A stretch of 46,358 bases of DNA, taken from Candidatus Omnitrophota bacterium (lineage in GTDB: Bacteria; Omnitrophota; Gorgyraeia; Zapsychrales; JANLHA01). The position numbers and the translations under genes are program-made. The notes under the pieces were generated by a model. That model was not told the DNA's origin, did no database searches, and saw only the letters and a list, made by a program, of their open reading frames with translations. Below are positions 38,422-46,358 of this stretch, piece by piece; position 1 is the stretch's first letter, and each line of letters opens with the position of its first letter. The DNA is taken from the NCBI GenBank assembly GCA_022711395.1, contig JAKLFA010000004.1, positions 268,996 through 315,353 of the forward strand, in the 5' to 3' direction.

Positions 38422-38450
38422 TTTATCAACTAACTAGTGTTTAATGTTAA
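38422..38450 (-). promoter_or_regulatory. promoter for the FadL-family gene with an Rrf2-like half-site
   Basis: On the minus strand TTAACA (38445-38450), 17 bases and GATAAA (38422-38427). The sequence AACATTA at the -35 matches one arm of the inverted repeat in the rrf2 promoter. Confidence 0.5.
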
Positions 38451-38488: not shown

Positions 38489-38920
38489 CTAAATATGGTA
38501 TATTAATGACTTATGATTGAGTTTCGACACGATCTTATCAAAGGTCACCTCCTTTAAAGCGTCCTCCACCTTTATGCTCATATCTGTCCAAATTCCGTAA
38601 AGTATTGTTGTTAAAGGGCTTTCGTATCTTTTACGGGCGCTGGATACTTGAAAAAAAACGCTCTCATCTACAGCTTTGATCACATCAGCCAGACTCAAAT
38701 GGTCTGGCGATTTAACTAAAGAATAGCCTCCGGCGATCCCTCTGGAACTGCGCACGATCCCATGATTCTTTAATTGGATAAGAATCTGGATCAAAAATTT
38801 TTTCGGGATCTTTTGGGCCTCAGCGATTTCACTCACCTGCACCGGATCTGATCCCCCATAGCGCAAAGAAAGCTCTGCCAAAGCTTTAAACGCGTAAATT
38901 GTTTTTGCTGATAAATTCAT
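38489..38920 (-). CDS. Rrf2-family transcriptional regulator without cysteines
   Basis: This 143-residue protein starts at ATG 38918-38920 behind GCGGAGTTGAA. The winged helix-turn-helix is clear: YAFKALAELSLRY, QVSEIAEAQKIPKKFLIQIL, and the wing in SSRGIAGGYSL. IscR and NsrR hold Fe-S clusters with three cysteines in the C-terminal half; this protein has none, which is more like CymR or other cluster-free members. It is preceded by a strong promoter with an inverted repeat that it probably binds. Confidence 0.92.
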   Translation of the reverse strand: MNLSAKTIYAFKALAELSLRYGGSDPVQVSEIAEAQKIPKKFLIQILIQLKNHGIVRSSRGIAGGYSLVKSPDHLSLADVIKAVDESVFFQVSSARKRYESPLTTILYGIWTDMSIKVEDALKEVTFDKIVSKLNHKSLIYHI

Positions 38921-38934
38921 TTCAACTCCGCACT

Positions 38935-38959
38935 AAACATTACCAACTTGATAATGTTT
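38935..38959. promoter_or_regulatory. inverted repeat operator at the rrf2 promoter
   Basis: AAACATTA, nine bases and TAATGTTT form two perfect eight-base arms. They lie between the -10 and the start codon, the place for an autorepressor. Confidence 0.6.
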
Positions 38960-38963
38960 ATTA

Positions 38964-38991
38964 AGTATACACGTTCTGTTTTTTTTGTCAA
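38964..38991 (-). promoter_or_regulatory. sigma70-type promoter for the rrf2-family gene
   Basis: On the minus strand a perfect TTGACA (38986-38991), 16 bases and TATACT (38964-38969). The -35 lies at the stop codon of the HELGH gene. Confidence 0.7.
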
Positions 38992-39569
38992 GTTTTTTTA
39001 AATGAAGCCGGCTCATCTCCCAAAGTCAACATCAACCACAAGATCCACCCTCCTAAAAACAGCCCCGCGATCATCGCCGTTCCAGCCGCTAAGCGTATCA
39101 AAAATGCCAGCAACTGATCATGCTCTAAAATTCCCCAATGTGTCAGCAAATAATTCCAGTCATGGATAATATCTTCTCCAAAACTAAACGGGCTCACCAA
39201 CGGCAGCGCCCTGGCGCGGGCGTCAGACACATAGCGCGCGACTTCAAAAAGGATCGTGGAAAGCCAGGAAAAACATAAGGAGATGGCGAAATAATCCTTC
39301 TGCCTTAAAAAATTCAGCATCGCCAAAAACGGGGCCAAAACCTCGACAAGCGTCCCTCCGGCGATATGCATCAGCTGGCCGAACGGCATACAGAGAAGGT
39401 GTCCTAATTCATGAATACCAAGATTGAGCGGAGAAAGGATGCTCCCGTAGTCAGGATTAATCAGGTAATGGTATAAAATATAAAAAGAGCCTGCCCACAA
39501 AGGAAAGCGGACGATCGCCCACTTCCCCCGGCACCACTGCCGCACATCCTGATACAAGACGTTAAACAT
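38988..39569 (-). CDS. membrane protein with HELGH zinc-protease motif
   Basis: This 193-residue protein has about four membrane segments. LGIHELGHLLCMPFG near residue 50 carries HExxH, the zinc-binding motif of membrane metalloproteases such as the M50 family. The second M50 motif (NPDG-like) is not found; NPDYGSIL precedes HELGH. So it is either a divergent protease or an inactive relative. No good SD lies before ATG 39567-39569. The His-rich membrane gene ends 20 bases upstream, so the two are probably cotranscribed and then followed by rrf2. Confidence 0.7.
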   Translation of the reverse strand: MFNVLYQDVRQWCRGKWAIVRFPLWAGSFYILYHYLINPDYGSILSPLNLGIHELGHLLCMPFGQLMHIAGGTLVEVLAPFLAMLNFLRQKDYFAISLCFSWLSTILFEVARYVSDARARALPLVSPFSFGEDIIHDWNYLLTHWGILEHDQLLAFLIRLAAGTAMIAGLFLGGWILWLMLTLGDEPASFKKT

Positions 39570-39588
39570 AGTTGGTTTAAATCATCTT

Positions 39589-40236
39589 TTAGTGTCCCGA
39601 GCACAAACAGTGACTTTCGGGAATGTCCTTGGGATCACGCACAAATAATAGAGGAAAGACAATATCACTAAAACAGCACGGAAGCCATACCGCCAAAAAT
39701 AGAAAGATGAACACGCCAAAATACGGGATCGCGTGAACATGATCGTTGGCCATCAGCATATGGAACAAAGACGCCCACGTGCTTAACAAGACATGCAAGG
39801 CGTGCGGAAATTTTGAGAAAGGCTTTAGATAAGCCAGCACTACCCCGAAAAGAGCCAACGGATTGACCAGCCACCACATTTCGATAAAACCAATATGAGC
39901 TTCCGCATGTTCCATATCCATCAAACGCTCGCCCCACCAGGGGATCAGCGAATCGCTCAAGGTCCCGATACCGACCGAACCAATATACCCGACAAGCAGG
40001 ACTTTCCAGAATTTTCGGGACGGAATATTTTTCGCCTTAGGCTTGTATTGACAGTAAATGGCTGTTGTGACCATGGCGCTTAAAAAAATATGCATCGGAT
40101 GAAGCACATAAAAAACCGCGTGGGCCGTGTCATGCGGCATCCGCCGAAAGACCATCATCAAAACGATCCCAGTCAAAGAACCAAACAAAGTAAACGGAGA
40201 ATGCCTTCTCAGTTCATGAACAATATGTTTAAGCAC
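39589..40236 (-). CDS. His-rich polytopic membrane protein
   Basis: The likely start is the second of two GTG codons, 40234-40236 (215 residues), because AAGGAG is two bases from the first. About six membrane segments are present. Histidines are frequent near membrane ends (MPHDTAHAVFYVLHPMHIF, split as MPHDTAHAVF and VLHPMHIF; MEHAEAHIG; MANDHVHAIPYF), and the C-terminus is SHCLCSGH, a likely metal-binding tail. No named family is recognised. Placement between a MscS channel and a HELGH protein, before an Rrf2 regulator, suggests metal handling or membrane stress; that is inference. Confidence 0.7.
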   Translation of the reverse strand: MLKHIVHELRRHSPFTLFGSLTGIVLMMVFRRMPHDTAHAVFYVLHPMHIFLSAMVTTAIYCQYKPKAKNIPSRKFWKVLLVGYIGSVGIGTLSDSLIPWWGERLMDMEHAEAHIGFIEMWWLVNPLALFGVVLAYLKPFSKFPHALHVLLSTWASLFHMLMANDHVHAIPYFGVFIFLFLAVWLPCCFSDIVFPLLFVRDPKDIPESHCLCSGH

Positions 40237-40267
40237 CACAACTCCTTTTTTTGAGTATGGGAGGCGG

Positions 40268-41176
40268 CTATGCGCCCTCTTTCTCCTTTAGGACCCTTAA
40301 AGGCGCTGAGCCCCCACCCTTGTCGCGTCCCATGTAAAGCGTAACATGCGGGAACGGGATCTCAATGTTCCGTTCATCAAATATTTTCTTTAAACGCCGG
40401 TTGAACTCCCGGCCCACCGCCCATTGACGGATCGGCTTTGTTTTGGTGCGGGCTTTGACGATCACGGCCGACGTGTCAAACTTGTCCAACCCCAAGATCT
40501 CGATCGGATCCAAAATATCCTTCTGGAATTCCGGATCTTGTCGCATGCCTTCATCAACCTCTTTCAGAATTTCGATCACTTCATCCACGTTCTCACGATA
40601 CGCCACCCCGACATCAAAAAGATAGAACGAATATTCTTTCGTCATATTAGTGACAACACCGACCAGACCGTTGCGGACATAATGGACATTTCCGCTCAGG
40701 TCCCGCAGGATCACCATGCGAAGAGTGATCCTCTCGACCAGCCCTCCCTTATCAGCGATCTGAACCACGTCTCCCACGCGGATCTGGTCCTCAAGTAAAA
40801 TAAAAAACCCGCTGATGACATCCTCGACCAGCTTTTGAGCTCCAAAGCCGATCGCCAGACCGGCGATCCCGGCCGTAGCCATGATCGGACCGATCTCGAC
40901 ACCGAGCTCCTTTAAGATCATCATGCTGGCCATGATAAAAATAAAAACATGCAGCCCGTAACGGATGATCGAACTGAGCGTATCCGCGCGCTTTTTCATT
41001 TCAATATCATCTTCCCGGCTTTGAGTGATAAAACGGACCAACTTGGCAGCTAAAAGGGTGGCGACCTTAAGACCAACCACCATCAAAACCAGGATCAGCA
41101 AAATCTGCAGACCGCTCGTGATCAGCCACGATCCCGCCTTTTCGACCATCGGCTGAATCTCCCCAACTGGATCCAT
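40268..41176 (-). CDS. MscS-family mechanosensitive channel
   Basis: This 302-residue protein starts at ATG 41174-41176 behind GGAAAGGGAAAAGC. Three membrane segments lie within residues 15-130. The pore-lining helix and its edge read ATAGIAGLAIGFGAQKLVEDV, shortened here to GIAGLAIGFGAQKLVEDV, followed by ISGFFILLEDQIRVGDVV. A cytoplasmic vestibule with beta domain ends at PFPHVTLY. It opens under hypo-osmotic stress to release solutes. The layout matches the short MscS class. It lies 53 bases after the SYLF gene. Confidence 0.93.
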   Translation of the reverse strand: MDPVGEIQPMVEKAGSWLITSGLQILLILVLMVVGLKVATLLAAKLVRFITQSREDDIEMKKRADTLSSIIRYGLHVFIFIMASMMILKELGVEIGPIMATAGIAGLAIGFGAQKLVEDVISGFFILLEDQIRVGDVVQIADKGGLVERITLRMVILRDLSGNVHYVRNGLVGVVTNMTKEYSFYLFDVGVAYRENVDEVIEILKEVDEGMRQDPEFQKDILDPIEILGLDKFDTSAVIVKARTKTKPIRQWAVGREFNRRLKKIFDERNIEIPFPHVTLYMGRDKGGGSAPLRVLKEKEGA

Positions 41177-43010: not shown

Positions 43011-43541
43011 TCAGAATATCGGTGAAAAGCATAAATTCCCGCTGCAGGTAGGATTGCCAACGGAAATTGGAAGGTCCGTGCGGACCTTTATTTGAAAATA
43101 ATTCGGCCAAGAAGCGCTCGCCGGCCATTTGGCCGTGCAAAATGATTCATAAGCGATATTCCAATAATGGCATTCATAGGAGATCTCACCCGGAATAATA
43201 TTAATATCCAACACGTCATTGATCATATCCACCCCGTACATACTGCAACCGCCCACACAGCCCACGATCGGGCACGCCGGCCCGCCGCAATAATACGGGA
43301 ATTTCGCCATCCCGGACTGGGCCATGAATAGCTGGGCCGCATCATAAATAGCCCGCAGCGCATCGCTGGATTGCTTGAAATGGGTCTTAGCTATCATCTT
43401 GTTATAACTGGGGATCGCGAAAGCCGCCACAATGCCGATGATCACGACCACGATCATGATCTCGATCAGCGTGAAGGCGAAAAACCGCTTTATAGACGGC
43501 TCACCAGCCCTAAAAAGATGTTTTTTCCATGAATGGAACAT
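43011..43541 (-). CDS. type IV pilin-like protein with an unusual cleavage site
   Basis: This 176-residue protein starts at ATG 43539-43541 with no clear SD. The prepilin motif is FFA/FTLIEIMIVVVIIGIVAAF: cleavage falls after Ala22, not the usual Gly, and Glu27 is the E5 of the mature pilin. The globular part has eight cysteines (YYCGGPACPIVGCVGGC, YECHYW, SFCTAKW, NPTCSGNLC). It is an orphan gene with no pilus assembly genes in the window. The DsbA-like enzyme at 25.4 kb could form its disulfides, which is inference. Confidence 0.85.
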   Translation of the reverse strand: MFHSWKKHLFRAGEPSIKRFFAFTLIEIMIVVVIIGIVAAFAIPSYNKMIAKTHFKQSSDALRAIYDAAQLFMAQSGMAKFPYYCGGPACPIVGCVGGCSMYGVDMINDVLDINIIPGEISYECHYWNIAYESFCTAKWPASASWPNYFQIKVRTDLPISVGNPTCSGNLCFSPIF

Positions 43542-45173: not shown

Positions 45174-46358
45174 TTATTTAAGCGCTGACAACTTCAAGAT
45201 CCCCTCTTGGCCCGCGTCCATTTCTCCCAAGATCATAGAAGGCGTCACCGGCGCAACATTGATAATGACCGGATAGAACCCTTCAATGTTCATGTTCTCG
45301 ATCGGCTGCTGAGGAAGCGGCAACGGAACACCACTGCCGTCACGCTTGATCTGCAGGTCCAGCAAGCTGGGATTAAGATCGATACCACCGACGTTCTGTG
45401 ACGGTTCCTGCGTCGCGGTAAACGGAAGGCTGGTAGATTGATTTCGCTGCCAGCTTAAATATTGATTCACGGCAGATGTGACATTATCACCCGGGTTCAT
45501 GATAATTGGAACCCCTCTATAGTTGCCGAGGACCGAGGCCCCTTGATTCCTTTGGCCCAGCTCCCGCATCTGATTAGCATACTCAGCGATCTCCACGCCC
45601 TCTGCCGCAACAGGCATCGGCACCGCCGGTCCGCTCAAAACCGCGGCATTCGTCGCTGAAGGCGTCGTTGCCACATAGCTGATCGGATTACCGTCCTGCC
45701 CCTGATTGACCATATAATATTGGCCATTGCTTTCATCAAGCACCAAGAACCCATCCTGCCCCGCGGGCTTCGTCTGCTCCCCCCACGGCGACTGGATCGG
45801 AACCTGATCCTCGACCTTATACCCCACCTCCGACATCCTCACCATCTGCACCGGCACCGTCTTTAACGCCCCAACCACATTCGGGTCCGTCTCCAGCAAC
45901 CCCTGGATCCCAGGCACCGTCTGCAGTCTGCCCATCAACTTCGCGTTCTTTGTCCCGACCTCGGCCGCTCCCACGGTCCTGTATTTCTTATCAAACGTAT
46001 CTTTACCAACAACATAAAAATCCGCCTGATTCCCATTCATCTGTAACGCAATGATACTCCCGATATTGGCTGCCAAGTATTCCTCAGTATACTTGGTCTG
46101 ATCCACTTCCCCGATACGATCCCGGATCGCCGCCGGCAGATCCTCAAACTTCGAACTCGTGATCCTATACCCTAAGATCGGCGCGTCCTTGATAAACCCA
46201 TGAAGCGTCGGGCTCACCTTTCCGATCGCCGACCGGATGTCATCCTGGCTCTGTAAACTCACCACCGCGGCATTCGTAGCCGGTGTGGGCGTGCTGGGAA
46301 CATAACTGATCGGATTACCGTCCTGTCCCTGATTGACCATGTAATACTGGTCTTTGCT
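45174..46358 (-). CDS. large repeat protein, 3' part, open at the right edge
   Basis: The frame is open from the window edge to TAA 45174-45176, at least 394 residues; no true start is visible, and an internal ATG at 46340 is only part of the repeat. The sequence QYYMVNQGQDGNPISYV occurs twice with a period of 209 residues (627 bases), each time followed by TPxxATNAAV. Between the copies is a domain with IGSIIALQMNGNQADFYVV. The last 180 residues are Pro/Gly/Asn-rich and end GILKLSALK. No named family is recognised. A long tandem-module surface protein is likely, by inference from the repeat and composition. Confidence 0.75.
   Translation of the reverse strand, partial: SKDQYYMVNQGQDGNPISYVPSTPTPATNAAVVSLQSQDDIRSAIGKVSPTLHGFIKDAPILGYRITSSKFEDLPAAIRDRIGEVDQTKYTEEYLAANIGSIIALQMNGNQADFYVVGKDTFDKKYRTVGAAEVGTKNAKLMGRLQTVPGIQGLLETDPNVVGALKTVPVQMVRMSEVGYKVEDQVPIQSPWGEQTKPAGQDGFLVLDESNGQYYMVNQGQDGNPISYVATTPSATNAAVLSGPAVPMPVAAEGVEIAEYANQMRELGQRNQGASVLGNYRGVPIIMNPGDNVTSAVNQYLSWQRNQSTSLPFTATQEPSQNVGGIDLNPSLLDLQIKRDGSGVPLPLPQQPIENMNIEGFYPVIINVAPVTPSMILGEMDAGQEGILKLSALK

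Follow-up and report, generated by a model that had tools for sequence, protein, structure and literature searches.

Two adjacent genes for membrane proteins without recognised domains raise the question of whether they act together, and with the genes around them, or lie side by side as unrelated neighbours. Both are found in the window, by which we mean the whole analysed stretch of 46,358 nucleotides, which belongs to an Omnitrophota assembly of 2.08 Mb that is 96% complete. A sequence-only reading had proposed that the two proteins, one with a HELGH motif and one rich in histidines, could form an envelope-stress or metal-handling system together with a SYLF protein and an acidic protein, flanked by an MscS channel and an Rrf2 regulator. 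The features of the locus are as follows.

38489-38920, minus strand: Rrf2-family regulator (PF02082, 3e-28), without Cys
38934-38960, no strand: near-perfect 27-bp palindrome TAAACATTACCAA-C-TTGATAATGTTTA, probable Rrf2 operator
38964-38991, minus strand: promoter-like TTGACA-16-TATACT preceding the Rrf2 gene
38988-39569, minus strand: HELGH membrane protein (P0001), putative membrane zincin, independent of P0002
39589-40236, minus strand: His-rich six-TM membrane protein (P0002), proposed transition-metal transporter from a large unnamed family
40268-41176, minus strand: MscS-type channel (PF00924, 1e-13; PF21082), 28 bp upstream of P0002

Both reading frames and all the motifs described earlier were present on the minus strand, and the MscS and Rrf2 flanks were matched by their Pfam models. 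In the flanks, Pfam and NCBIfam also identified a FadL-type porin and, as a weak match slightly below the Ysc84 cut-off, a SYLF protein. The HELGH protein has 193 aa with HELGH at residues 53-57. The His-rich ORF spans 39589-40236 or 39589-40239, giving 215-216 aa with the tail SHCLCSGH. Its start is most likely the second GTG (40236), where it had been placed before, because this codon lies 5 nt after GGAG and agrees with the N-termini of the homologues. The two proteins were rightly called unrecognised, as neither had a Pfam or NCBIfam match at E<=1. A PDB sequence search with the alignments of both families gave nothing useful, no relatives were found in the viral contigs searched, and no paper on either family was found in the literature. 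The ORFs are not a product of chance, since relatives of both occur at 40-68% identity in other genomes. They are separated by 19 bp, which together with the MscS gene 28 bp upstream makes their co-transcription plausible. The MscS gene is probably on the same transcript as P0002.

The tight spacing on one strand is also what speaks for a single envelope-stress or metal module that would join the two proteins to MscS, Rrf2, SYLF and the acidic protein. The gene pair was searched for in 285 Omnitrophota genomes. HELGH relatives were present in 26 of these and His-rich relatives in 93, and both families occurred in 10, against 8.5 expected if they were independent. Among these 10 genomes the two genes were adjacent only in the present one; in the other nine they were on different contigs or, in one case (G176), 149 kb apart. 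In profile searches, about 110 His-rich loci gave no HELGH homologue, and the HELGH loci in turn gave no His-rich one. In His-rich-carrying genomes of many phyla, a HELGH homologue was present in 3 of 50 and never nearby. Six further genomes from the family of the present one were sampled and all lacked the HELGH gene, whose neighbours vary between genomes. Relatives of the SYLF and acidic proteins were absent from all fetched loci of either family, so that including these two in the system found no support. Besides this locus, an MscS gene lay beside the His-rich gene in L032/L062 only; these come from two related genomes and are the one further point in favour of a module. The sequence-only reading had itself named the absence of the pair from other genomes as the finding that would speak against it, and this is what was found. 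Taken together, the searches make the single module highly improbable. The two proteins come from unrelated families, and it is by chance that their genes lie next to each other. MscS, SYLF and the acidic protein do not belong to a module either, and MscS is not a general partner. As the best explanation, to which we give an even chance, the genes are unrelated neighbours, the His-rich protein being a putative transition-metal transporter and the HELGH protein an independent membrane zincin-like protein.

The Rrf2 gene, which had also been counted as a part of the module, has a promoter-like site of its own that carries 11 of 12 consensus bases. Between this site and the ORF lies the palindrome at 38934-38960, with 12 of 13 arm pairs. 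No comparable match appeared in 100 shuffles, and the palindrome is the sole exact site in the genome. A weaker stretch resembling it was noted near 38423-38448, before the FadL-type gene. Both stretches are likely Rrf2 operator sites. The Rrf2 gene is probably a separate transcription unit and most simply a self-regulating gene, separate from both membrane proteins. Regulators of the IscR/NsrR type carry three conserved Cys residues, and none was found in the Rrf2 protein of the window.

Of more weight than the gene pair is the unnamed family to which the His-rich protein belongs. A scan of GTDB genomes confirmed at least 568 relatives, and P0002 is a member of a large family for which neither Pfam nor NCBIfam has a model. 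The phyla among the matches listed include Omnitrophota, Elusimicrobia, KSB1, Planctomycetes, Deltaproteobacteria, Atribacteria, Aminicenantes, WOR-3, Woesearchaeota and others. The listed relatives thus cover bacteria and archaea, mostly as metagenome-assembled genomes, and the nearest named ones among them are Omnitrophota. We take the host groups to be mostly anaerobic. A second, more distant subfamily with about 30-42% identity is present in some of the same genomes. The plasmid search returned one truncated homologue. This broken copy lies at L058:5917-6276 on an 809-kb megaplasmid of Peptoclostridium acidaminophilum, and the gene is unlisted in the PLSDB table.

Conservation was analyzed in an alignment of 84 homologues, 65 close and 19 distant, some of them about 30% identical. 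The histidines highlighted before were kept: E9, H13, H47, H50, D96, H146, H149, C188 and D192 were invariant and H115 and E120 near-invariant, while H160 and E104 were restricted to the close subfamily. The family motifs are HPxH, SDxxxP, HxxH and PCCxSD. For the SHCLCSGH tail the picture was mixed. It is present here and Cys/His tails recur in both subfamilies, but the sequence itself is not conserved and many homologues lack it. Hydropathy and charge gave six TM helices with both termini inside, by a positive-inside count of 13 K+R on the N-terminal side versus 3 on the other. This topology would place one cluster, of H47, H50, D96, H115 and E120, towards the outside and another, of E9, H13, H146, H149, C188/C189 and D192, towards the inside. 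Invariant metal-ligand residues in TM helices, as expected of a transporter, were found, with full or near-full conservation at ten E/H/D/C positions.

An AlphaFold (AF2) model built from 65 sequences was a confident six-helix structure (pLDDT 87, pTM 0.85). Foldseek with this model against solved structures gave no match at E<=0.001, the best having E=0.33 and a TM score of about 0.2. The matches to ZIP folds (TM 0.2-0.28, E>1) were discarded as meaningless. At the level of Pfam, the protein did not match ZIP, CDF, NiCoT, Nramp or FeoB at E<=1. ZIP (Zrt/Irt-like) proteins are similarly small helical membrane proteins that have His-rich segments and whose helices carry conserved His/Asp/Glu. 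The His-rich protein differs from them in its six TM helices and its HPxH, SDxxxP, HxxH and PCCxSD motifs, in addition to the missing Pfam match and a fold search that stayed at TM<0.3. MerT-type mercuric transporters have a vicinal Cys pair inside a helix, which resembles the PCC in TM6 of the His-rich protein; the two differ in length, in the number of helices and in the remaining invariant residues, and there was no Pfam match.

We then analyzed the gene neighbourhoods of the family. Some loci from the database scan duplicate loci from the phylum search, and counts are given per unique locus where stated. A Fur-family gene was adjacent and on the same strand in at least nine different loci (L032, L062, L057/L123, L107, L127, L130, L135, L136 and L147), which come from Omnitrophota, Elusimicrobia and Deltaproteobacteria. 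Other recurring neighbours were CDF, CsoR, ArsR-type, HypA, FeoA, thioredoxin, MBL-fold, DUF89, MrpORP/MinD and NifX genes, with CDF genes among the neighbours in four unique loci. The Pfam/NCBIfam tally over 137 operon-like neighbours gave Lactamase_B 11, Radical_SAM 9, Trx 7, FUR 6 and MrpORP 5. In L032:114-2576 and L062:7543-10005, genes for Fur, the His-rich protein, MscS and a ferritin-like/rubrerythrin protein stand in a row, and over this stretch the two related genomes share 86% DNA identity. Beside distant homologues in L145, L152 and L153, apparent heme-synthesis genes (hemC/hemB/hemL-like) were noted by eye.

As controls, HELGH/M50 loci with 289 genes and a genome-wide Fur count were used. 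Fur and the other neighbour query families had no match among the 289 control-locus genes. Fur-family proteins gave 61 matches in 58 Omnitrophota genomes, about one per genome. A Fur gene lay within 6 kb of the His-rich gene in four (G002, G014, G017 and G026) of the 17 Omnitrophota genomes that hold both, against an estimate of about 0.2 expected. Genes six or more positions away in the His-rich loci were also rich in iron-sulfur functions. Part of the neighbour signal is therefore that of a general anaerobe gene cluster, and the family often lies within long iron-sulfur gene clusters, for example with MrpORP. MrpORP/orange-protein gene clusters of anaerobes have been described as iron-sulfur gene clusters (PMC6345978). 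The parts of that work on ORP genes mention no membrane protein of the His-rich kind. The His-rich family is often found in such neighbourhoods, whereas the window has no such genes adjacent.

Together, the invariant residues and the neighbours support a metal role for the His-rich family; the earlier idea of a metal function thus holds in part, for one of the two proteins. The protein may be an inner-membrane transporter of a transition metal, most likely Fe2+ and possibly another divalent metal; iron is favoured because of the Fur and iron-sulfur neighbours. Metal would be bound first at the outer cluster, by H47/H50 of the HPxH motif, D96, H115 and E120. It would then pass between the helices and be handed to the inner cluster of E9, H13, the HxxH pair H146/H149, C188/C189 and D192. 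The Cys/His cytoplasmic tail of many members, including this one, could bind or sense the metal. In this way the protein would serve metal balance beside iron-sulfur, heme or thiol-redox genes. The wider proposal can only be made tentatively, and we consider it possible. It holds that the family is a new and widespread class of iron or other transition-metal transporters in anaerobes, both bacterial and archaeal. The fold would be unrepresented in the PDB, and the transporters, spread over hundreds of species, would be linked to control by Fur and to the assembly of iron-sulfur clusters. If true, hundreds of uncultured anaerobes would share an unrecognised membrane metal carrier near iron-sulfur and redox genes, and this would close a gap in the understanding of iron or related-metal transport in anaerobes. 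The ten named residues provide testable positions.

Several observations stand against this proposal. The neighbours are diverse, and many of them (MBL fold, radical SAM, YggS, NUDIX, deformylase) are not metal transporters. For the iron link at this locus, no Fur-family gene was found in the genome itself (G000), although 44 of the 58 Omnitrophota genomes sampled have one, so control of the His-rich gene must differ here; the local Rrf2 has no Cys for an Fe-S cluster. The metal-sensor genes and the Cys/His cytoplasmic tail are reminiscent of CDF or of CsoR- or Fur-linked efflux, which likewise come with Fur, CsoR or ArsR-type regulators nearby. The His-rich protein differs in lacking a CDF domain, and its sequence and motifs are unrelated.

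The many hydrolases among the neighbours, and the invariant S54, S95, S153 and S191 beside His/Asp, would suit a membrane metalloenzyme acting on a lipid or cofactor. This could be a zinc hydrolase resembling alkaline ceramidase/PAQR, or else an enzyme with some other His/Asp metal site. We consider this unlikely: the model gave no fold match to a solved structure at a meaningful E, the regulators beside the genes are metal sensors, and two separated residue clusters with Cys/His tails suit transport or sensing better. A b-type heme or other redox membrane protein has also to be weighed, in which HPxH and HxxH would bind heme and the thioredoxin and iron-sulfur genes would be linked to the quinone pool. 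Thioredoxin and thioredoxin reductase genes are indeed common neighbours, and several distant members (L145, L152, L153) lie by heme-synthesis genes. However, most members have no heme-gene neighbours, a bis-His heme has no need of invariant E9, D96, D192 and C188, and no cytochrome b fold was matched, which renders a heme protein quite improbable. A di-iron oxygenase was rejected because the His spacing is wrong for it and the hosts are largely anaerobic.

The HELGH family is sparser than the His-rich family and was found in Omnitrophota and Planctomycetota, including 13 of 149 genomes of the phylum of G295 (Sedimentisphaerales; Planctomycetota). No homologue was found on plasmids. In 39 homologues H53, E54, G56, H57, G64, G72, P80, W102, Y113, D116, D137 and W138 were invariant, so that the motif was conserved as the sequence-only reading had asked. 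As expected for an M50/site-2 protease, in which the HExxH zinc motif lies in a transmembrane segment, HExxH is near a hydrophobic stretch of P0001. The second M50 motif (NPDG/DG) is indeed missing, as had been noted, but the invariant D116 and D137W138 offer alternative candidates for the third zinc ligand. We regard the protein as a putative membrane zincin, consistent with HExxH and the invariant D116 and D137. The probable zinc ligands are H53, H57 and either D137 or D116, E54 would act as the base, and the protein may have an enzyme role.

The protein could be a genuine, though divergent, M50/site-2 protease with a substrate in the membrane. Like M50 (PF02163) and M50B-like (PF13398) proteins, it combines an invariant HExGH in a multi-TM protein with a conserved Gly pair, a Pro and an Asp downstream. 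It differs from them in having the invariant D116 and HDW (D137) in place of an NPDG-type motif. P0001 did not match PF02163 or PF13398 at E<=1, nor did any of 25 members of the family. When the family profile was compared with those of RseP-type and M50B families from the same phylum, only the HExxH region aligned, with 35% and 4% probability; this comparison has little power, as M50B against RseP itself scores only 24%. A single-sequence AlphaFold model was poor (pLDDT 52). We consider a true M50 protease doubtful and keep to the putative membrane zincin.

Two further proteins of the window were noted. The short protein at 43011-43541 has a prepilin-type N-terminus (FTLIEIMIVVVIIG), and the protein at 45174-46340 contains internal repeats (YYMVNQGQDGNPISYV...PSATNAAV).
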